Assembly (NCBI RefSeq): GCF_001025215.1
Contig: NZ_AP012330.1
Span: forward strand, 1,612,001 to 1,676,000
Source: Bifidobacterium pseudocatenulatum DSM 20438 = JCM 1200 = LMG 10505
GTDB lineage: Bacteria > Actinomycetota > Actinomycetes > Actinomycetales > Bifidobacteriaceae
Reading direction: 5' to 3'
DNA: 64,000 nt
Shown: piece by piece, positions 12,514 through 23,461 of the stretch
How the letters are laid out: each line of letters begins with the position of its first letter
Position numbering within the stretch: position 1 is the stretch's first letter
Notes under the pieces: model-generated
The model's database searches: none
Seen by the model: only the letters and a program-made list of their open reading frames with translations
What the model was told of the DNA's origin: nothing
Position numbers and translations under genes: made by a program

Positions 12514-14558
12514 ATTTCAATCCACGCTCTCCATGAGGAGAGCGACTGATACGACGCTCGAAAATCATCTTAATCGTATCATTTCAATCCACGCTCTCCA
12601 TGAGGAGAACGACCCCTTGTACGGCGCGAACGCACTGCTCCCAGCTATTTCAATCCACGCTCTCCATGAGGAGAACGACGGGGATGCGGTCGAGGATCGG
12701 GCTGACCTGCGTATTTCAATCCACGCTCTCCATGAGGAGAGCGACATATCCGGCGTCTGCACGGTGTGAACAAGTGTATATTTCAATCCACGCTCTCCAT
12801 GAGGAGAGCGACCGGTCATGACGTCATACTCCCCATTATTTTTTAATTTCAATCCACGCTCTCCATGAGGAGAGCGACCGCCGCCCTGCTTGGCGATTGC
12901 CACGTCGGTCAGATTTCAATCCACGCTCTCCATGAGGAGAGCGACACGACGACAATCAGGTTTTGCGCTTGGGGATTATTATTTCAATCCACGCTCTCCA
13001 TGAGGAGAGCGACTTCCATGTAAGCGTTACCCAACTGGATATCGTGTTATTTCAATCCACGCTCTCCATGAGGAGAGCGACTTATCCGATTTTCGACGAA
13101 AACTATAGAGCGAGCCTATTTCAATCCACGCTCTCCATGAGGAGAGCGACCGGCGCGTACGGGGCGCAATGCTGGGATTTATGGGCATTTCAATCCACGC
13201 TCTCCATGAGGAGAGCGACCAAAATCATCACGACAAAAACGCAGATCTGGAATATTTCAATCCACGCTCTCCATGAGGAGAGCGACGAGACTGATTCCAG
13301 CTGACGTGCTCGAAGCCATATTTCAATCCACGCTCTCCATGAGGAGAGCGACTCATGTCAAAGGGCTCGGCGTTAATCCCGATGAATTTCAATCCACGCT
13401 CTCCATGAGGAGAGCGACAGAACCGTCTGGGCACGTCGAACCGGAACGCAATATTTCAATCCACGCTCTCCATGAGGAGAGCGACCAACCTCGCGCCGGA
13501 AAATCAACCTCGGGTGGAAATTTCAATCCACGCTCTCCATGAGGAGAGCGACAGAACCGTCTGGGCACGTCGAACCGGAACGCAATATTTCAATCCACGC
13601 TCTCCATGAGGAGAGCGACCAGTTTCAGCAACCTCGACATCGGCAAATACCTATTTCAATCCACGCTCTCCATGAGGAGAGCGACGCAACGCCTTCCACG
13701 ATGCGATCACCTCGGGTGTATTTCAATCCACGCTCTCCATGAGGAGAGCGACGTATCCGCCGGAATTGTTGACCGTCACGCGACTATTTCAATCCACGCT
13801 CTCCATGAGGAGAGCGACGATAAGTTCATCCAGCAAAAAGCGCAGGTGACTAACATTTCAATCCACGCTCTCCATGAGGAGAGCGACGTCGGCGCTGAGC
13901 GGGTCGCCGTCCTGCATGAGATTTCAATCCACGCTCTCCATGAGGAGAGCGACATGGCGTTCTGGTAGTCGCCTTGCGCTGCGTATATTTCAATCCACGC
14001 TCTCCATGAGGAGAGCGACTTAATGATTTGATGACTAAGAACAATGTTCTGACGATTTCAATCCACGCTCTCCATGAGGAGAGCGACTGTTGGCCGTGTC
14101 CGTAATAGCGGCATGCGGAATATTTCAATCCACGCTCTCCATGAGGAGAGCGACCGCCTCGAACGCTGATACCCCTCGCTATTATCTCGATTTCAATCCA
14201 CGCTCTCCATGAGGAGAGCGACAATTTGTTGTCGTCCCTTGTGATTGCGAAATACGATTTCAATCCACGCTCTCCATGAGGAGAGCGACTGGATGCCATA
14301 CGCATTTCCTCACGGAAAATGTTATTTCAATCCACGCTCTCCATGAGGAGAGCGACCTTGTCGGCCCAGAGGATGGCGCTCGCGAGCAGATTTCAATCCA
14401 CGCTCTCCATGAGGAGAGCGACGCCGCGATGCCATCTCACGGTCAAGTTTCGTGACATATTTCAATCCACGCTCTCCATGAGGAGAGCGACCACCAACAT
14501 CCTACCAGTATGGGGGTACGAGGGCATTTCAATCCACGCTCTCCATGAGGAGAGCGAC
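12514..14558 (-). CRISPR. Type I-C CRISPR array, 31 repeats and 30 spacers
   Basis: The 33-bp repeat, read in the crRNA direction (minus strand), begins GTCGCTCTCC, has a TCAT loop, GGAGAGC and ends GTGGATTGAAAT, the type I-C pattern with a GCTCTCC/GGAGAGC stem. Repeats start at 12514, 12581, 12647, 12713, 12780, 12846, 12913 and so on to 14526; spacers are 33-36 bp. The repeats at 12581 and 12647 have one shared base change (GTTCTCC), as expected at the old end, so the leader is on the right next to cas2. The spacers at 13419-13452 and 13553-13586 are identical. Transcription is leftward. Confidence 0.98.
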
Positions 14559-14943: not shown

Positions 14944-15234
14944 CTATATCATCATCACATCATTAACCGGCAAACTCCGTTCACGTCCATAATGCTCAAT
15001 CCTATCCGCATATCGAGCGCCAAGTTTATAAAAGCGCAGGCTGTCCTCATCGGTATTGGCAATCTTCAGCAAATCGTGCACCAACACCAGATAATCGGAA
15101 GGACTCACCGAGCATTCGAAAACACTGTTCTGCACACGCTGTCCGTATTTCACGCATGTCTTCGCCACCAAACGAAGACGACGCTTCCCCTCAGGGGTTT
15201 CCGTACTCACATCGTACGCAACCACAACCATCAT
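14944..15234 (-). CDS. cas2: CRISPR-associated endoribonuclease/integrase subunit Cas2
   Basis: A 96-residue ferredoxin-fold protein beginning MMVVVAYDVSTETPEGKRRL. The YDVS strand with its Asp is the Cas2 hallmark, and the downstream RVQNSVFEC motif is typical of the I-C group. With Cas1 it forms the complex that inserts new spacers at the leader end. It is the last cas gene, about 385 bp from the array, and starts 67 bp after the cas1 stop. Length is normal. Confidence 0.97.
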   Translation of the reverse strand: MMVVVAYDVSTETPEGKRRLRLVAKTCVKYGQRVQNSVFECSVSPSDYLVLVHDLLKIANTDEDSLRFYKLGARYADRIEHYGRERSLPVNDVMMI

Positions 15235-15301: not shown

Positions 15302-16333
15302 TTACTTCCACATAAATGGCGGGTAATCATCAAGATCACCCCGCAACGATCGAGCTAGCAGCAGCGCTTGCACATACGGAACCAACCCCCATGAAATTTT
15401 TTCTTGCAGGAACGGATGAAGAATCTGATCGCTCTTCTTTTTCTGCCACGCCGTAAGCACTTTCTTCCGCCCGGAATCAGACAGCAGCACACCACCATTC
15501 TCCCGTATTTCAAAATCCCCCGGCTTAACAGCGCCTGTATTAACCAATGTCAGCACAAAGCGGTCAGCCAACACCGGGCGAAACTCTTCAACCAGATCCA
15601 ATGCCAGAGAGGCTCTCCCGGGCCGATCCGTATGCATAAAACCAACATACGGATCCAGCCCCACGCCTTGCAAAGCCGCAATGCAATCATTCGTCAATAT
15701 GGAGTAGCAAAAAGACAACAATGCATTTAGTCTGTCCAGCGGAGGCCTCCTCGACCTATTGGTGAAAAAGAAATCATCTTTATTCTTCAGGACCAAATCG
15801 TCAAAAGCGTAGAAATAATCTTTGGCAGCAAGCCCTTCGACACCCCTCAACTCATCAACCGTCAAACTTTTCCGAGCTTCTAACAATGCCGCCGACAATT
15901 TGCCACTCTGCTCGGCAAGTCGGTCAATATTTACCCGCAAAGCATGATCACGTTTCGTACGTTCGAGCACCCATTTCGCATTGTAAAGTTTTCCAACAAT
16001 GAAAGATTTCGCGTAACACAAAGATTTTTGTTCGTCATCCGCGACTCGAAATTGTTCACGGCGAAGTAGCACATTACGATTCTCCTCCCCTAACACGGAA
16101 CAGTAATAATGGCCTCTCGGTGAATAGAATGCCATAGAAACGCCCAGTTTGCCGCAGCGCCCCATAAGAGCAGGCGAAGCACCCTTATACGAGAAACACA
16201 TGATTCCCTCAATTGACCGTAACGGCACTTTCGCCAAGGTTTTGTCATTCTGATGAATCACAACATTGTCGTTCTCCAAAGCAAGATAGGCATCTTCCGT
16301 CATCACAAACAGCGTGTTTAACAGCTGCTTCAT
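15302..16333 (-). CDS. cas1: CRISPR integrase Cas1, type I-C
   Basis: A 343-residue Cas1. The N-terminal beta domain (LFVMTEDAYLALENDNVVIH) is followed by the helical catalytic domain with DPYVGFMHTDRPGRASLALDLVEEFRP (about residues 225-250) holding the metal-binding His, Asp and Glu. It catalyses spacer integration with Cas2. Its start overlaps the cas4 stop (TGATG arrangement; a GTG one codon upstream is an alternative), showing translational coupling. Full length, no defects seen. Confidence 0.97.
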   Translation of the reverse strand: MKQLLNTLFVMTEDAYLALENDNVVIHQNDKTLAKVPLRSIEGIMCFSYKGASPALMGRCGKLGVSMAFYSPRGHYYCSVLGEENRNVLLRREQFRVADDEQKSLCYAKSFIVGKLYNAKWVLERTKRDHALRVNIDRLAEQSGKLSAALLEARKSLTVDELRGVEGLAAKDYFYAFDDLVLKNKDDFFFTNRSRRPPLDRLNALLSFCYSILTNDCIAALQGVGLDPYVGFMHTDRPGRASLALDLVEEFRPVLADRFVLTLVNTGAVKPGDFEIRENGGVLLSDSGRKKVLTAWQKKKSDQILHPFLQEKISWGLVPYVQALLLARSLRGDLDDYPPFMWK

Positions 16334-17010
16334 CACTCCCCGCTTTCCTTGAGCCGTTCTTCGATATATGCTTTTGCCGATTTCACCTTCCGTAATTCAG
16401 GCAGGCACAAATCCCGTAGAGAACATGACGAACACGATCTGGTCTGTTTCACTTTAGGAGTCCATCCGCGGGAGAAAAGATCATGCATTTGCAAGAAGTC
16501 AGCTTCGACCATGTTGCGAAGATCTTCGTCCAATTTTACCCGCTCACGACGTTTTGTCTGCCGATAGAACAAAGCACCTTCAGGAATATCACACGCGAGC
16601 ATTTCTTCCAAGCACATCGCTTCCGCGCATAGCTGTAAACGATCAGCATCAATCGTTTTGTATTTGCCGTGTTTGTATTCAATCGGATATGGCAACCACA
16701 ATCCATCTCTTCCGTGAAGCGGAACACCATCATTAGACTTATGGAATTCCACAACATCACAGGCTCCAGTTATGCCGAGCGCTCGCGAATAGACTCTCAA
16801 ATCCCGCATGATCAGCGTATCGCCGCGAGATTCAGAAGTCGCATAATCGTGGGCGCGTTCATGTTCCAGATGCCCAGCTGTGGTCAAATAATTCTCTGAC
16901 CACAGCTGTTCGATATGGATAAGAGCCCACTGTCGTTTGCAGAATGAGAAATGCTGGATGCCCGAAAGGGCCAGCCAATCTTCTTCCGGATATCCTTCTG
17001 GCCCTTTCAT
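16333..17010 (-). CDS. cas4: CRISPR-associated exonuclease Cas4
   Basis: A 225-residue Cas4/RecB-like nuclease. The N-terminal GIQHFSFCKRQWAL holds the first iron-sulfur cysteine; the other three are near the C-terminus in CSSCSLRDLC. The nuclease core includes the Asp of GACDVVEFH and the PIEYKHGKYK motif. In type I-C, Cas4 works with Cas1-Cas2 to trim prespacers and select those with the right PAM. It lies 33 bp after cas7 and overlaps cas1. Confidence 0.96.
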   Translation of the reverse strand: MKGPEGYPEEDWLALSGIQHFSFCKRQWALIHIEQLWSENYLTTAGHLEHERAHDYATSESRGDTLIMRDLRVYSRALGITGACDVVEFHKSNDGVPLHGRDGLWLPYPIEYKHGKYKTIDADRLQLCAEAMCLEEMLACDIPEGALFYRQTKRRERVKLDEDLRNMVEADFLQMHDLFSRGWTPKVKQTRSCSSCSLRDLCLPELRKVKSAKAYIEERLKESGE

Positions 17011-17043: not shown

Positions 17044-17889
17044 TCAGCGTCCTTCAATCACTTCGTACCGCAAGTCGGGAATAGAAGATCCATTCACTGC
17101 CACCGTTCCGTCCACATTAACGGAAACGGAACGATGAACTTTGGCGGAAGAGTATTGCCCTGACTTGCTGTTGTGCGTGAACCACACAACGTCCAACACT
17201 TCCATGGACCCCGCAGGACGAGCCGAACTTTCATCATTCTCAAACAACGTGACGAGAGCTTCCTTGATTTTTTCGGCGTCTTCTGCAGTAAACCCGGTTT
17301 TTTCGGCAAGCTGTGGGCTGATGCTGCCATACGTCGCATACACCGCACGGCCGGAAACACGGTATTTCATTCCCATGGTATCGGAGGATTTCTTACCGGT
17401 GTCCGTGGTTTCACTGTTCACTGACTTAGTGATCTGCACGTCGTCAATGGCGATGGGTTCAACCGAGAACGCAGCCTGAATGGAAACCGGACCGCGCACG
17501 CCCAAGGAAACTTCGTCAACATCCTTAGCTTTTTTGAATGCGAATACTTGTCCGAACGCACGTACGTCAAGCCACTGTTCGCACACTTTCTGGAACACCA
17601 GGTTCTTCTGTTTCTGCTCTTCTTTCGGCAAGGTTTTCAAATATGTGTTGAAACGGTCCGACAATGATTTTGCGCCGTCATCGGAACGGTCATCGGACTG
17701 CACGAAAATCGTTTCACCAGCATCTTGCAGGCGATTGCGAATCTTCCTTTTCAGTGCAACGTCAGAAACCTCGCCCAGCCCTTCCGATGTGGTTCGTGGA
17801 CGATTGCCATTCAACGGATCACCATTAGGATTGGCATTATTAGACGCAAAAACGACTGCGAAATCAATCTTGTTTTCCAAAGCTGCCAT
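17044..17889 (-). CDS. cas7: Type I-C Cascade backbone subunit Cas7 (Csd2)
   Basis: A 281-residue RAMP-type protein that forms the helical backbone along the crRNA. The N-terminus (IDFAVVFASNNANPNGDPLN) is diagnostic of Cas7c/Csd2, and the GVRGPVSIQAAFS and MGMKYRVSGRAVY segments match the family. A ribosome site (AAGGAG) precedes the ATG. It follows cas8c by 59 bp and precedes cas4 by 33 bp. Length is normal. Confidence 0.96.
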   Translation of the reverse strand: MAALENKIDFAVVFASNNANPNGDPLNGNRPRTTSEGLGEVSDVALKRKIRNRLQDAGETIFVQSDDRSDDGAKSLSDRFNTYLKTLPKEEQKQKNLVFQKVCEQWLDVRAFGQVFAFKKAKDVDEVSLGVRGPVSIQAAFSVEPIAIDDVQITKSVNSETTDTGKKSSDTMGMKYRVSGRAVYATYGSISPQLAEKTGFTAEDAEKIKEALVTLFENDESSARPAGSMEVLDVVWFTHNSKSGQYSSAKVHRSVSVNVDGTVAVNGSSIPDLRYEVIEGR

Positions 17890-17948: not shown

Positions 17949-19826
17949 CTAGTTTTCTTTGCTCTTCTGGGATGCTTCTTGCGCTTTACGCATAGACTCC
18001 CTTCGCTGGCATGAATAACCGAGCAGAAAGAGCGGTGAAAGTGCACGGTTATCTTCGAAGTCTCCTTCTTTGAAAAGCGCCATGACCTCATCCACGCTGT
18101 TCTGGAACCAGGGCGCGCCATTCGCCGATTTCAGGTAGGGCATCAGTTGCTTCCACAGCGTTCCCCATGTTGTAAACGGCTTTGCGACGAAATTGCTCAT
18201 GAGCTTAACGGCATTGGTCGGACGGGTGTCACTGATTCCTTGCTTATACAGGACACCGTTTTCAAAGCGGTCCGCGAGTGCCAGCAATCTCCCGTATAAG
18301 TAGTCGCGGTCATTTCGTGTTGGTTCAAGGTACATGGATATCGTGTCCTCCTGTTTGTTTTGCTTCCTCGCGTCGTCAATGTAATGTTTTTTCCATAGGC
18401 TGCATGCGATTTCAAAATCTCTTAGCCATGCTCCTGGAGCGTCATATCCCATAGGTTTAGTGACTCTGTGGTATGTGGCGTCCAATATGAAGCGGGGAAG
18501 CGATTCTCCTCCGAACATGCATTCTATAAGCTGCTTTTTCGTGTTTTTCGCAAAACGTTTATAGGCTTTGCTGCTTCTGTCTGACACGTCATATGCGCAG
18601 CTGATGATGTCGGCAAATGGTGGCGCACCTTCATATGCGACAAACTTCTTTTTTTCTTTGTCGTACATTTTCAACGGCCATGCCGCATCAACATGCCACC
18701 GCAGGATACTTTCGACATATTCGTCTTTTGAAAGTTCACGGTAATATGTAACGCTCAAACGCCCTGATGTCGCCGCATCCAGAATGACAATCATCATTGG
18801 GTCGGCATGCTTTTTGAGTTTGTTAGCATTGCCATATCCGCGTAGTACCTTCGAAAAAACTTGTGCGTATTGAAAGTTTGTTGCGGTCAGCGCATCTGCA
18901 ATATCGTTGCGGGGAGCTTCCGGCTCGTCCACATCCGATGAGAACAAAGAGCCAAAATCATAAGAACCTTCCTGAGGGTCAAGCTTCGGCTTTTCGTTGG
19001 GGTTTTTCACCGAGCAGATGACTATGGCCTGGGTATCGGTAATCGTTCCATGATTATTGACCAACCATTGCAGCGTCGAATGTATCTTCTGCGATGTTTC
19101 ACCATCGACTTGCAAAGCCTCCTCTTTGGATGCGAAGCGCCCTCGATAGGTGAAATTCGTTGAATCGTTTGCCGATAACAGTTTGGCGTTGCCATTTACG
19201 CTGACAATTTTCTTAGGGAAGTTCAATATCGGAGCATATAGGTCCTCTCCGAACATATCCTTCCCTTTTTTCTGTCGATCATGGTACAAATAAGAAATCC
19301 ATTGCGCCTGTATATCGGGATCGTTCGAGACATCTGAGTTTTGCAGCCCAATTTCAACTTCGAAGCAAACACCTGCTTTCCGGTCTTTTTCGGTTATTTC
19401 CACATTGAATCGAGCGGCTTCTTCGCTGATGCTGTGTTCCGAAACGCATCGATAGATGGCATTGAGTTTGACGTTGTCGCCTTTCCAAGCGGCAAGCTGC
19501 TCCAAATACATGGAGGTTTTCTCCTTGTCGAAATGCAAGTCGAGATATTGGAGCTGATCAAACAGAGGATGCGGTACCGGCTTGATGGTGCGTCCCATGG
19601 AACTTTCTGTGCACGGGATAACAATCGTTTGTTTTTCCCTCAGAAGCCGTAGTATCTCACCATTCTCGTTTACCCCTAGCGTCAATAGTGTCGGAAGTGT
19701 CGTATGCCCCGGAGGAATCAAGGCTTTCCTAATGTCAAGCGTAGAACCGTCGCCACTTCTCGGAATTTTTCCGGCGGCGTTGTGCACAGATTCGTTGATA
19801 AGCAACAGATTGTTCGACAGGCTCAT
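17949..19826 (-). CDS. cas8c: Type I-C Cascade large subunit Cas8c (Csd1)
   Basis: A 625-residue Cas8c, the subunit that recognises the PAM and recruits Cas3. Characteristic stretches include AWISYLYHDRQKKGKDMFG, ICSVKNPNEKPKLDP and MMIVILDAATSGRLSVTYY in the middle and the C-terminal FLLGYSCQRRESM. In type I-C an internal start in this gene often yields the small subunit Cas11c; no separate cas11 gene is present, so that probably applies here. A GTG directly before the ATG is an alternative start. The cas5 stop lies 3 bp upstream, so translation is coupled. Confidence 0.95.
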   Translation of the reverse strand: MSLSNNLLLINESVHNAAGKIPRSGDGSTLDIRKALIPPGHTTLPTLLTLGVNENGEILRLLREKQTIVIPCTESSMGRTIKPVPHPLFDQLQYLDLHFDKEKTSMYLEQLAAWKGDNVKLNAIYRCVSEHSISEEAARFNVEITEKDRKAGVCFEVEIGLQNSDVSNDPDIQAQWISYLYHDRQKKGKDMFGEDLYAPILNFPKKIVSVNGNAKLLSANDSTNFTYRGRFASKEEALQVDGETSQKIHSTLQWLVNNHGTITDTQAIVICSVKNPNEKPKLDPQEGSYDFGSLFSSDVDEPEAPRNDIADALTATNFQYAQVFSKVLRGYGNANKLKKHADPMMIVILDAATSGRLSVTYYRELSKDEYVESILRWHVDAAWPLKMYDKEKKKFVAYEGAPPFADIISCAYDVSDRSSKAYKRFAKNTKKQLIECMFGGESLPRFILDATYHRVTKPMGYDAPGAWLRDFEIACSLWKKHYIDDARKQNKQEDTISMYLEPTRNDRDYLYGRLLALADRFENGVLYKQGISDTRPTNAVKLMSNFVAKPFTTWGTLWKQLMPYLKSANGAPWFQNSVDEVMALFKEGDFEDNRALSPLFLLGYSCQRRESMRKAQEASQKSKEN

Positions 19827-19829
19827 CAC

Positions 19830-20537
19830 TCACTCCTCTCCCACCGGCTGCAGATTGCTCCCCAAAGCGAATTCCTTGACGCTCTGGTTTTTCCTGATAA
19901 TTCGTCCATCCAATTTCGTGGATTCCGGACGCTCAAATTCGATGATGCCGTCGGACATAACAGGCGACCAGAATCGGGCGATAAAATCGTGGTCCTCGTT
20001 TTCATCCGGATACGTGAATCCATGGAACATGTATCCCATATTCCACTCGCCATAACCGTCATAAAACCCTTCGCCAGATCCGAACTCACATGGTTCCACA
20101 TACCCCTGGCACTCGCGCGTCCCCAAGAATATGTCTCGGCGACCGCCTTTCTGAACGGATCTCAAGGCGATATTATGATGTTTGTTTTCGTCGCGGTCAG
20201 CGACAAGATCTTCACGCTGATCATTCCATTCGAAATGAGCCAAAACCTGATAACGCACGTCTTTGAGATACGTGTAGTACGAAAGATCATTGCCACCGCT
20301 CATTTTGATGGGTCGAATTCCCTTTCCTTCAGTCTGAACTCTGTTCATCACACGAACAGCGTCAATAACCCACATAAAAGTTGGCTTCCAATAGATGCTT
20401 TCCGTAATGCCTTTCAAAGCTTGGTACGTTGGCACCTGATACGAAAATTTCTCACCCCCAACACGTGTTGCTGCTTCCGAGAACAACGCATATCTGCCTG
20501 ATACCTCATATTCAATTGAGTTGCGATGTCGTTGCAT
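19830..20537 (-). CDS. cas5: Type I-C crRNA-processing subunit Cas5c (Cas5d)
   Basis: A 235-residue Cas5 of the catalytic I-C type. It replaces Cas6: it cuts the repeat hairpin and stays bound to the 5' handle of the crRNA. Typical segments are [32 protein letters not shown], the [13 protein letters not shown] region and [19 protein letters not shown] strong ribosome site (GAAGGAG) precedes the ATG. It is the first gene after a 242-bp gap from cas3 that contains a terminator-like hairpin and its own promoter, so cas5 heads a separate transcription unit. Confidence 0.96.
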
Positions 20538-20577
20538 ATAACTCCTTCGTTAATCGTTCCCTCAACCAGCCACTGTC

Positions 20578-20611
20578 AATATAGCACATTTTACGCTTAT
20601 TGTACATAGAA
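20578..20611 (-). promoter_or_regulatory. cas5 operon promoter overlapping a protospacer-like site with TTC PAM
   Basis: On the minus strand a -35-like TGTACA (20606-20601), 17 bp and a -10-like TATATT (20583-20578) lie about 40 bp before the cas5 ATG. A TACAAT hexamer in the same stretch is an alternative -10. Directly upstream, TTC (20611-20609) precedes TATGTACAATAAGCGTA (20608-20592). That sequence matches 15 of 17 bases of the spacer-like sequence at 20704-20720. TTC is the known type I-C PAM. Binding of Cascade here would cover the promoter. Confidence 0.65.
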
Positions 20612-20674
20612 CTCTTTGAGTGTTTCTCAATCAACAATCAACCAGTTATTCTTGTATAAGTAGGTTTTCCTACT

Positions 20675-20767
20675 GTCGCCACATTCATGGCGTGGATTGA
20701 AAATATGTACAACATGCGTATTTACCAAACGAAACTCTCCTGCAGATTCCCATCGACCTGCAGGAGA
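20675..20767 (+). ncRNA. Candidate crRNA-like autorepressor RNA (CreR type)
   Basis: The plus strand between cas3 and cas5 holds a degenerate I-C repeat at 20675-20703. It starts GTCGC, has a shortened CGCCA/TGGCG stem around CATTCA and ends GCGTGGATTGAAAA, so the handle TGGATTGAAA is identical to the array repeat and only the last base differs. A spacer-like TATGTACAACATGCGTA and about 15 further bases follow (20704-20735). A 10-bp hairpin (TCTCCTGCAG/CTGCAGGAGA, 20736-20767) stands in place of a second repeat. A weak promoter (TCAACA, 18 bp, TATAAG ending at 20660) precedes it. Matching to the cas5 promoter is described in the findings. Expression is inferred. Confidence 0.65.
20736..20767. 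terminator. Hairpin between cas3 and the candidate CreR
   Basis: A perfect 10-bp stem with a 12-base loop, 13 bp after the cas3 stop. On the minus strand it is followed by a short T-rich stretch and probably ends cas3 transcripts. On the plus strand it would define the 3' end of the small RNA. Confidence 0.6.
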
Positions 20768-20779
20768 ACCACTGCCCTT

Positions 20780-22522
20780 TCATATCATCAACAGAGACAT
20801 GTCCGTCTCTGTCACCACGCCATATTCGCCTTTGTAATAATCTCCATTCAGAACGCAAATATCGAAATCCTCGCTAGCGATGGAAATCGCATGTTTTTCG
20901 TTCAAAATCTTGTATTCGTAATCGAAAAGGGAAACCGTGTATTCCTGTAGCCGCCGCAGAATCGCAATCTTCTCCCTCAACTCACCGTGACCCAACATAT
21001 CCAGTAATTCCATCGCATTGCCATAGGGAACCACAACATTGTGCGTGATTTTCGGAATCACACGATATTCATTGCCGACCGTTTTGAACGCCTGGGCAAA
21101 AAACGGATTGTATCTCTCCCCCATCGTATTGTTCTCGAATTGCTTACGTTGGCTTTCGTTGTATGCCAGCAACTCATAAATCGTTTTTCCAGCGTTTTCC
21201 TTTTTCCAAAGCGGACCATCCAGCAAACTATTGCCGCCATCTCGATCCTCACTTTGAAGCAGCATGCCATAAAACTCATTGAGCATGCCAGTAGAAAGCA
21301 GATCAGCATCAGGATGCTCACCCATAATCTGCAAAGTGAGCTTTTTGCCTCTGTGAATCTCTGGAAGATAGTCCTTGAACCTTTCCTCACCTTGCAACGG
21401 ATAGACATACACATCCTTGATTTCTTTCGATTCACCATTCCTGTTGCACCTGCCAGCCGCTTGCATAATGCTATCCAGACCAGCCATCGCCCTGACTACG
21501 CATGCGAACGAAAGGTCCACTCCCGCTTCGATAAGCTGCGTGCTTACGCAAATCACCGGTTTGGAATCATGAGGATCAGTTAACACCTTTATTCTCGCTA
21601 ACTGGTCTGCCCTATGTTTGCCACACATGGCAGTACTCAAATGAATCAACTCAAACTGCCCGTCAGCATTGAGCTCTTGCAAACACTGATACATTTTGCG
21701 CGCTTCACTCTTCGTGTTGACGATAGACAGACAATTGCCGTTCCGAAGTGCCTGCTCATATATGATGTTCGCAAGTTCCTCGCAACTCTTGCTTTCCTGT
21801 GAAGCAATAATCCGGGTACGCTTGAGCTTCTCTTCGTAACCATCAGTATTGTCGATAAGATCAGGCTCGTCTGACAGACGCAGATTCTTTCGCGCCGTTC
21901 GTTCCAATAAAGGCTGCGTAGCTGAGCACAGCAGAATAGTCGAGTCCAATATCGTCGAAAGAAAACTCACAACTTCATTAAACGGATTGATGATATTCAA
22001 TGGAAGCGACTGAATCTCATCAAAAATGATGACGCTATTGGCCATGTTGTGGAATTTACGAAGTTTCGTACCACGCGCCGACATAACCGTTTCCAAGAAT
22101 TCGACCATCGTAGTCACGATGATCGGATTATCCCAACGTTCAGACGCCAGTTTACGTTGACGTTCCTTCACATCCTCTTCCTCACTTGTGCCGATAGATC
22201 CCGTGTTACCGGAATTCTGAAGGCCCGCGGTGGAGTAATGCTCCAGCACAATATTGCTGTCAGCATCCAGACCAAGCATATTCCGGAATGTTGCCACGGT
22301 CTGTGACGTAATAGACAAGTACGGAATCACATAAATGATTCGTCTTTTCCCTGTTTCCAAAGCATGATGCAAGGCGAAATTCAACGAAGCCAACGTTTTA
22401 CCGCCTCCGGTCGGAACCGACAATCGGTAAATCCCTGTCTCTCTGCTCCCAGCTTGACGGCACTGTTCCGTAATCTGTTGACGGATTTTATTGATTTCGG
22501 ATGTCGAATCGAATGATTTCAT
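20780..22522 (-). CDS. cas3: Cas3 helicase part (Cas3'), downstream of an in-frame stop
   Basis: A 580-residue segment carrying the Cas3 superfamily-2 helicase: Walker A VPTGGGKTLASLNFALHH (about residues 34-51), the DEIQSLP box (about 168), CSATQP, and the C-terminal helicase motifs VSTQLIEAGVDLSF and QAAGRCNRNGE. Cas3 unwinds and degrades DNA marked by Cascade. Normally it is one chain with the HD nuclease. Here the HD part ends at TGA (22553-22555) and the same frame continues SELIRRLDES into this ATG. Only a weak GAAAG ribosome site precedes it, so re-initiation may be poor. Confidence 0.9.
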   Translation of the reverse strand: MKSFDSTSEINKIRQQITEQCRQAGSRETGIYRLSVPTGGGKTLASLNFALHHALETGKRRIIYVIPYLSITSQTVATFRNMLGLDADSNIVLEHYSTAGLQNSGNTGSIGTSEEEDVKERQRKLASERWDNPIIVTTMVEFLETVMSARGTKLRKFHNMANSVIIFDEIQSLPLNIINPFNEVVSFLSTILDSTILLCSATQPLLERTARKNLRLSDEPDLIDNTDGYEEKLKRTRIIASQESKSCEELANIIYEQALRNGNCLSIVNTKSEARKMYQCLQELNADGQFELIHLSTAMCGKHRADQLARIKVLTDPHDSKPVICVSTQLIEAGVDLSFACVVRAMAGLDSIMQAAGRCNRNGESKEIKDVYVYPLQGEERFKDYLPEIHRGKKLTLQIMGEHPDADLLSTGMLNEFYGMLLQSEDRDGGNSLLDGPLWKKENAGKTIYELLAYNESQRKQFENNTMGERYNPFFAQAFKTVGNEYRVIPKITHNVVVPYGNAMELLDMLGHGELREKIAILRRLQEYTVSLFDYEYKILNEKHAISIASEDFDICVLNGDYYKGEYGVVTETDMSLLMI

Positions 22523-22552: not shown

Positions 22553-23197
22553 TCAATCCGCCTTGATCGGATGATATTGCTCTTTCGTCTCAAAATAAGC
22601 CGTATCTGTTCTATCGGCATCAATCAAACGAGAATAAACGTATTTAACTAGTAATCCCGAGTAGAAATAACGACTATCTTTCGACAATTTCAGCAATTTA
22701 GTTCGTCCTACAAAATCGAAAACATCTTTTTCGGCCTGCTGGAAGGTGTCTTGCAAGTCGAGGTCCAAATCATGTAGCCCCTGTTTGATTTCCCCATACG
22801 CATATTTAGGATTCTGTTTATCTGCTTCCGTAAAACCTGTGAGAAAAGCCTCATCACCGATTTCATTGATGCAATCAGGAAGCTCTCCATGATGTTTTGC
22901 AATAACAAGTTCAAGAATCTCTTTCACGATTTCCGCTGCCGAATTCGAAATCGGCAGGTCATTGACGACGAACGCACCCTGCCTCGCATGAGGAATCTCA
23001 CCACGACGTCCCTTGCCTGATATCAGATACGTTTGAAACTGTTGCGCGACCTTTCCAACATCATGCAGGAGCGCCGCCATTCGCGGAATCTGAGAAAACT
23101 CCGATTCATAGCTTTCCGCTAAGTCACCCGCATTGTGAAGATGGTCACGCAACGTCTGCACACCGCCATCCGCGTCCTTGTGCGCCAGCAAAGTCAT
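22553..23197 (-). CDS. cas3: Cas3 HD nuclease part (Cas3''), truncated by TGA
   Basis: A 214-residue HD-domain nuclease. The metal-binding motifs are visible: AALLHDVGKVAQQFQ with the HD pair (about residues 42-43), PHARQGAF, and IAKHHGELPD. It nicks and degrades target DNA together with the helicase. The ATG at 23197 has a strong ribosome site (AAGGAG) and gives the standard MTLLAHKDADGG start; the longer TTG start at 23224 is less likely. The TGA at 22553-22555 sits where a tryptophan (TGG) would be expected, so this looks like a recent nonsense mutation of a full-length cas3. Confidence 0.9.
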   Translation of the reverse strand: MTLLAHKDADGGVQTLRDHLHNAGDLAESYESEFSQIPRMAALLHDVGKVAQQFQTYLISGKGRRGEIPHARQGAFVVNDLPISNSAAEIVKEILELVIAKHHGELPDCINEIGDEAFLTGFTEADKQNPKYAYGEIKQGLHDLDLDLQDTFQQAEKDVFDFVGRTKLLKLSKDSRYFYSGLLVKYVYSRLIDADRTDTAYFETKEQYHPIKAD

Positions 23198-23224
23198 AAT
23201 CTGCTCCTTCACAGATATGTTCAA

Positions 23225-23461
23225 GCACCCCTACATTACCATAGCGTTACAGTTCTCACGAGCATTGCAACGAGGTTCGGCATATAGAGACAGAAGACTT
23301 TCAAGTGGAATAATCCGCATATACGCATACTCATTGGTATACCTATTCATATCTTTCCATTTTCAATTCCAAATGGAAAGATATGAATATTTTTTGCGTT
23401 AGCTACACTTAACCGAATAAGTGTAGCTAAATTCCGCGTTAGCCACATTTATTCGCACATA
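23225..23461. promoter_or_regulatory. Upstream region of cas3 with two AT-rich palindromes
   Basis: Two near-perfect inverted repeats lie 120-210 bp before cas3. The first is ATTCATATCTTTCCATTT and its complement (23345-23362 and 23371-23388), followed on the plus strand by ATTTTTTG. The second is TTAGCTACACTTA and its complement (23399-23411 and 23418-23430). A related half copy (TTAGCCACATTTATTCG) follows at about 23439. They may be terminators, operators or both. No gene is present. Confidence 0.55.

Follow-up and report, generated by a model that had tools for sequence, protein, structure and literature searches.

A CreR-like mini-repeat predicted to repress the type I-C cas operon in Bifidobacterium pseudocatenulatum

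The type I-C locus and its mini-repeat

The window, a stretch of 64,000 nucleotides of Bifidobacterium pseudocatenulatum DNA, contains a type I-C cas locus. The whole set lies on the minus strand in the order cas3, gap, cas5c, cas8c, cas7c, cas4, cas1c, cas2 and CRISPR array. A single in-frame stop (22553-22555) splits cas3 between its HD part (22553-23224) and its helicase part (20780-22522); the gene is uninterrupted in the close relatives L102 and L103. On the other side of the gap, cas5c (19830-20537; TIGR01876, 258.9 bits) is the leading gene of the operon that is predicted below to be repressed. It is followed by cas8c (17949-19829; TIGR01863, 207.3 bits, slightly below the cut-off of 218.65), cas7c (17044-17889; TIGR02589), cas4 (16333-17010), cas1c (15302-16336; TIGR03640) and cas2 (14944-15234). 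The array (12514-14558) is built of 33-nt repeats of the sequence GTCGCTCTCCTCATGGAGAGCGTGGATTGAAAT. The effector genes cas5, cas8 and cas7 are full-length open frames. Interference may have been lost in the window genome owing to the cas3 stop, while the Cascade genes remain open.

The 242-base gap between cas3 and cas5 carries, on the opposite (plus) strand, a degenerate type I-C repeat, GTCGCCACATTCATGGCGTGGATTGAAAA, at 20675-20703. Its stem (20677-20681 paired with 20688-20692, around a loop at 20682-20687) is CGCCA/TGGCG, which gives five pairs in the fold versus eight in the array repeat. The mini-repeat retains the 5' GTCGC of the array repeat, and its 11-nt 5' handle TGGATTGAAAA (20693-20703) is the array counterpart TGGATTGAAAT in all but the last base. 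Sequence and fold thus agree with what an earlier, sequence-only reading of this DNA had claimed for the GTCGC end, the stem and the handle, and a degenerate repeat with both a handle and a processing stem inside a cas locus is what characterizes CreR elements. The handle is directly followed by a 17-nt guide, or psi-spacer (20704-20720). Immediately 5' of the mini-repeat lies the palindrome AGTAGGTTTTCCTACT (20659-20674), the place of which is occupied by a different palindrome, GTGGGATTCCCAC, in the L101 locus of genome G001.

Downstream of the guide, the window folds into a hairpin at 20736-20767 on the plus strand, for which the statistics were taken on the near-identical copy of G041 (L103). 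The same sequence-only reading had described a unit that lacks a second repeat and is ended by this hairpin. The solitary repeat and the hairpin were borne out. The terminator role was not, because there is no T run on the plus strand and no terminator was predicted there. It is possible that the hairpin forms the 3' end of the RNA, the terminator of cas3, or both.

The guide is identical in 15 of 17 positions to a site on the minus strand at 20592-20608, as had been noticed earlier, with mismatches at positions 10 and 12. The trinucleotide TTC directly precedes this target at 20609-20611 (minus strand). Its identification as the type I-C PAM agrees with the PAM 5'-TTC reported for type I-C in B. 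longum (PMC5626976). The target lies over the -35 region of the cas5 promoter, also as first claimed, and overlaps the hexamer TGTACA. This promoter (20578-20606, minus strand; -35 TGTACA, 17 nt, -10 TATATT) is predicted from its consensus match; it is the sole consensus promoter in 20480-20850, where one was found against 1.1 expected in shuffles. The target site is 55-74 nt from the cas5 start, and no gene lies in between. A further feature of CreR, a partial guide match next to a PAM in a cas promoter, is therefore found here despite the position 10 mismatch, which falls inside the seed. Within the same interval, 20480-20850, no consensus match to a promoter of the element's own was found on the plus strand.

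The match between guide and target exceeds what shuffling of the gap produces. In 3000 dinucleotide shuffles the best TTC-flanked match reached 12/17 and the best match without regard to the PAM 13/17, against the 15/17 observed. A search of the 2.31-Mb genome with PAM plus guide, in which positions 6 and 12 were masked and three mismatches tolerated at most, yielded just two places: the cas5 site, with one mismatch, and the element, with three that all fall in the PAM. The backwards pattern gave three sites at the same tolerance, and the weight therefore rests on the single mismatch of the cas5 site, which is the closest guide target in its own genome. An Rfam scan of the gap returned no match at E values up to 1, and no DNA similar to the element was found at E 1e-5 among 50,697 phage records or 72,556 plasmid records. 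One hit on a viral contig, a single 20-base exact word that sits within a coding gene, was rejected as a chance match.

Recurrence among relatives and across type I-C loci

A close type I-C Cas5c is encoded by 12 of the 112 genomes of the genus set. In 11 of these 12, an element of the same kind is found upstream of cas3 or cas5, and each guide fits its own promoter site. The gap is nearly identical in G000, G038 and G041. In G038, target position 10 pairs with the guide, unlike in the window, so that position 12 is the lone mismatch in 17. In G001, the Cas5c of which is 77% identical, the layout is the same, but the stem (CATCGC/GCGATG), the guide and the promoter site are all different; two of the first 15 bases of this guide are mismatched, namely position 14 and position 6, the latter being a base flipped out of the guide duplex. 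The cas3-cas5 gap of the remaining eight genomes is without such an element. Seven of them bear it before cas3, there the leading gene (G028, G085, G095, G098, G012, G025 and G031), and in G086 it was not found even with a looser search. The unusual TCGAAA of the G031 array handle, TGGATCGAAAC, is found again in the mini-repeat handle of this genome, TGAGTCGAAAT, and the guide-target mismatches (locus L104) are at positions 6 and 12.

Seven further genomes of the family have a Cas5c match. Three of them, G154, G158 and G126, carry an element at the strict threshold; Cas5 of the latter two is only 32-33% identical. The G126 element is regarded as the weaker candidate because of a mismatch at position 7. 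No element was found in the other four (G140, G157, G172 and G185). In a cross-match matrix of ten Bifidobacteriaceae loci, guides matched their own sites in 12-14 of 15 positions and the sites of other loci in 0-10. The guides diverge strongly among the species of the genus, yet each suits its own promoter site. We looked in the relatives for the outcome that had been named as refuting the proposal, a conserved repeat with a drifting 17-base match. It did not occur: the match is kept while guide and site diverge, as is expected of CreR.

Two single loci deserve mention. In G154 (L113:5217-5363) the guide suits two adjacent TTC sites, one on each strand, before cas5. The guide of G001 is separated from its hairpin by a tract of 11 C and 10 A (L101:11050-11070) that may be phase-variable or sequencing-prone.

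For a wider survey, 184 type I-C loci were anchored on Cas5c, and 174 were kept after 10 near-duplicates had been dropped. Of the 184, 75 came from named genome contigs (five Bifidobacterium loci being left out), 19 from the family and 90 from three wider draws. For one draw, 111 hits scored above 200 bits and 40 were used, taken alternately from the first 79; the other two comprised 28 of 29 (the remaining one being L063) and 22 of 23 (the remaining one being L082). The names given to the draws, Clostridia, Paenibacillales and Gammaproteobacteria, were inferred from the titles of the centre records. The scan took solitary handle-like words, read the bases that follow as a guide and compared them with sites up to 700 nt away, with any triplet allowed in front. 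Matches were accepted at 12 or more of the 13 core positions (1-5, 7-11 and 13-15), and array-associated handles were kept apart.

Across the 174 loci, 38 of 41 accepted matches behind solitary handles adjoin TTC, as do all 28 of the full-core (13/13) matches. When the guide was read in eight wrong registers, with the handle 7-10 or 12-15 bases from it, none of 74 matches was next to TTC; for array-associated handles the count was one of 14. Strictly positive loci number 37 of 174, and the other 137 show no element at these settings. By group, positives amount to 10/16 in Bifidobacteriaceae, 7/24 in Clostridia, 11/37 in Paenibacillales, 0/22 in Gammaproteobacteria and 9/75 in the others; these counts are lower bounds, because some contigs stop before the leading gene and because handles vary. 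Of 38 targets, 31 lie 5-104 nt upstream of the inferred start of cas3 or cas5, and 36 of 38 elements are oriented away from that start. Over 35 distinct pairs, guides fit their own sites with a mean of 14.0/15 versus 5.6 on foreign sites, where 13 of 1190 pairs reach 12. The register, the PAM, the pattern at positions 6 and 12 and the promoter-proximal placement recur in the presumed Clostridia and Paenibacillales loci.

Core matches were imposed by the selection; positions 6, 12, 16, 17 and 18-24 are free of it. The 26 distinct full-core pairs give 5 matches at position 6, 7 at position 12, 20 at position 16 and 14 at position 17, and over positions 18-24 the average is 30%. Matching at positions 6 and 12 is thus at the background level, while position 16 still matches (Fisher p = 7e-5 for position 16 versus 6, and 7e-4 for 16 versus 12). 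Such a footprint is expected of Cascade pairing, in which each sixth base is flipped out, with the match ending near position 17.

A hairpin stronger than in shuffles (z < -2; median -5.1) stands behind the guide in 33 of 37 elements, as compared with none of 33 control stretches taken about 350 nt further on. G001 is among the four that lack this signal, with z 0.7 in the 55 nt that follow the guide; its hairpin begins further down. A stem with a T-rich tail follows the guide in 16 of 37 elements, against 12% in shuffles. Typically, then, a unit has a single shortened repeat and a short guide and closes with a hairpin or terminator. Upstream of the elements, -10-like hexamers are not enriched (20/37 versus 48% in shuffles). 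The targets overlap the best consensus promoter in 13 of 30 pairs (of the 35 distinct pairs, 30 were entered), against 7.0 expected by random placement. The crudeness of the promoter model accounts in part for this modest overlap.

Searched more loosely, the 137 negative loci gave four extra pairs. Those of L104 (G031) and L166 were accepted; that of L193 was set aside as consisting of array letters, and that of L087 as coding and palindromic. The exclusion of array-associated handles had hidden L166 from the solitary count. It is a Gammaproteobacterial candidate (L166:3770-4010, G1280) in which the element runs in the same direction as cas5, the order being the TTC site, a shortened repeat with the handle TGGGTTGAAAC, a 16-base matching guide, a hairpin and cas5. 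A different arrangement was seen in G655 (L188:3276-4301, minus strand), where the guide target is directly upstream of the mini-repeat itself, before a DUF3800 gene (PF12686) and then cas3; in the first 17 bases this guide has mismatches at 6 and 12 alone. By analogy with CreTA or CrePA, L188 may represent a type I-C guide that guards a cargo gene.

Predicted autorepression and alternative explanations

We propose, with a probability of roughly 0.87, that the element encodes a CreR-like, cas-regulating crRNA-like RNA, and that type I-C Cascade is predicted to repress its own operon through it. The comparison of genomes supports the initial suggestion of an autorepressor of cas5-cas8c-cas7-cas4-cas1-cas2. 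Transcription, processing, Cascade loading, binding without cutting, repression and a sensing role are what we infer, and they might proceed as follows. A transcript divergent from cas5 would fold so that its short repeat forms a stem, and Cas5c, which does the processing in type I-C, would cut at the base of this stem to leave the 11-nt handle and a short guide closed by the hairpin. Cascade (Cas5c-Cas8c-Cas7) loaded with this RNA would recognise TTC and pair over 15-17 bases at the cas5 promoter, positions 6 and 12 being flipped out of the pairing. The short match would permit binding without licensing the destruction of the DNA, and RNA polymerase would be kept off. Free Cascade would thus determine the level of the operon cas5-cas8-cas7-cas4-cas1-cas2, which would rise once array crRNAs or anti-CRISPRs draw Cascade away. 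Since the Cascade genes are open and of full length, repression could outlast interference in the window genome with its interrupted cas3.

Several other explanations should be weighed against predicted autorepression. The mini-repeat is degenerate and solitary, as a decayed array remnant would be, and self-matching spacers occur in CRISPR arrays. The promoter match might then be due to chance, or the guide might be an ordinary self-targeting spacer, in either case with no regulatory role. A remnant is, however, at odds with own-promoter matches before the leading cas gene in 11 of the 12 genus genomes, with a register and a PAM kept in distant groups, and with the frequency of hairpins behind the guide (33/37). 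An acquired spacer would match over its full length, whereas the observed matches end near position 17. This explanation is largely refuted, and we consider it very unlikely. The two 17-nt sequences are also inverted copies, some 100 nt from each other, that contain the palindrome TGTACA, and they could be read as a pair of operators for a protein repressor that loops the DNA across the cas3-cas5 gap. Yet, in the survey, a Cascade handle precedes one copy, as the selection required, and TTC precedes the other in 38 of 41 cases although any triplet was allowed. A protein site would neither track the changes of the array handle, as in G031, nor leave positions 6 and 12 free to vary. The strand of the target with respect to the gene is the other one in several loci, which fits poorly with operators in a fixed arrangement. 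An operator pair is accordingly even harder to credit.

The remaining two explanations start from known solitary repeats. CreTA modules, which have the same guide design, are reported in or near cas operons (PMC8501985), and a toxin-antitoxin guide would have a target that drives a toxin instead of the cas operon. In the window, however, the target is the cas5 promoter region itself, at the short, gene-free distance from the cas5 start given above. By annotation the target promoter drives no toxin (creT), although a very small toxin RNA between promoter and cas5 remains conceivable; overall, we judge a CreTA-like guide to be highly improbable here. A type I-C RNA anti-CRISPR (Racr) beside acrIC5 has been reported from a B. 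pseudocatenulatum prophage (PMC10651486), and the solitary repeat might be a Racr or the remnant of one. The element lies inside the cas locus rather than on a virus or plasmid, none of the phage and plasmid records searched matched it, and a decoy would need no guide that matches a promoter. Of all the explanations considered, a Racr has the slenderest chance.

Returning to predicted autorepression, we would lean slightly towards a wider form of it, in which a compact autoregulator is common in Gram-positive type I-C systems. It would consist of one shortened repeat cut by Cas5c, a guide of 15-17 nt free at positions 6 and 12 and a nearby hairpin, and it would precede the leading cas gene in divergent orientation. 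The guide would co-evolve with the promoter within each species, and cas expression would gauge unoccupied Cascade. Copies like that of L188 would guard cargo, and the system of the window may persist as an RNA-guided repressor only.

Relation to known systems

CreR is described for subtypes I-B, I-E and V-A (PMC13131331), and its scope is given as 'Type I and Type V-A' (PMC12737573). The element described here is like CreR in being a degenerate mini-CRISPR in a cas locus, with a partial seed match to a PAM-flanked cas promoter and predicted autorepression by the effector. As CreR is described there for I-B, I-E and V-A, the present element differs in belonging to type I-C, which is without Cas6, so that processing would fall to Cas5c. 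It also differs in having one repeat and a short guide followed by a hairpin, and in being divergent from the operon.

The statement that crRNA-like RNAs of the CreA and CreR kind repress promoters in other CRISPR types agrees with these descriptions and with that of a toxin promoter as the target of CreA (PMC8501985). According to the same source, CreA of Haloarcula depends on its guide bases 1-5 and 7-11 and can be altered at 6 and 12; its PAM is TTC, and its repression requires the Cascade genes but not cas3 (PMC8501985). The present element shares the pairing at 1-5 and 7-11, the freedom at 6 and 12 and the PAM. It also shares the one-repeat form with CreA of H. hispanica, which ends in a terminator (PMC8501985). 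Unlike CreA, which belongs to type I-B and acts on a toxin promoter, it has the cas5 promoter as its target, and no toxin was seen. RacrIC1 is likewise a solitary I-C repeat in a bifidobacterial genome; it is a prophage-borne decoy beside acrIC5, and a promoter-matching guide is not among the features described for it in the text available (PMC10651486).

The kind of element is already known as CreR, and we regard its extension to type I-C as well supported. Shmakov et al. 2023 reportedly defined by computation a broad class of crRNA-like elements, standalone repeats with spacers that partly match cas promoters, and the present element is like these. Cas9 is said to repress itself by means of a long tracrRNA, with a short-match guide that prevents cutting (Workman 2021). 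The likeness is that an effector represses its own operon through a short match; there the system is type II and the guide is derived from tracrRNA. No case of a type I-C CreR came up in searches of open papers, which did not cover Shmakov et al. 2023, where I-C members may be listed. Within that scope, the outcome agrees with the view that such an element had not been described in bifidobacterial I-C loci. The words 'CreR', 'mini-CRISPR' and 'autorepress' are absent from the main text of a 2026 review of bifidobacterial CRISPR systems (PMC12838274).

According to that review, type I-C is the subtype present in the largest number of Bifidobacterium strains (1,212, with 3,050 strains having CRISPR-Cas), and in B. 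breve it has been repurposed as an editing tool (PMC12838274). A built-in autorepressor would set the amount of Cascade for editing tools as well as for natural immunity, and it would offer a simple knob, in that either the guide or the site could be altered. Through it, an attack by anti-CRISPRs would be coupled to the induction of cas genes, and this in a subtype for which CreR is not listed in the available parts of the reviews. The collected guide-promoter pairs also document, in natural sequences, how short a match can be and still bind, presumably without setting off destruction.

Two other features of the window locus were noted. An identical array spacer is present twice, at 13553-13586 and 13419-13452 (minus strand), two units apart. 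Upstream of cas3, at 23344-23389, two AT-rich arms of 19 bp form a perfect inverted repeat around an 8-nt loop; it may serve cas3 as an operator or a hairpin, with no relation to the mini-repeat.
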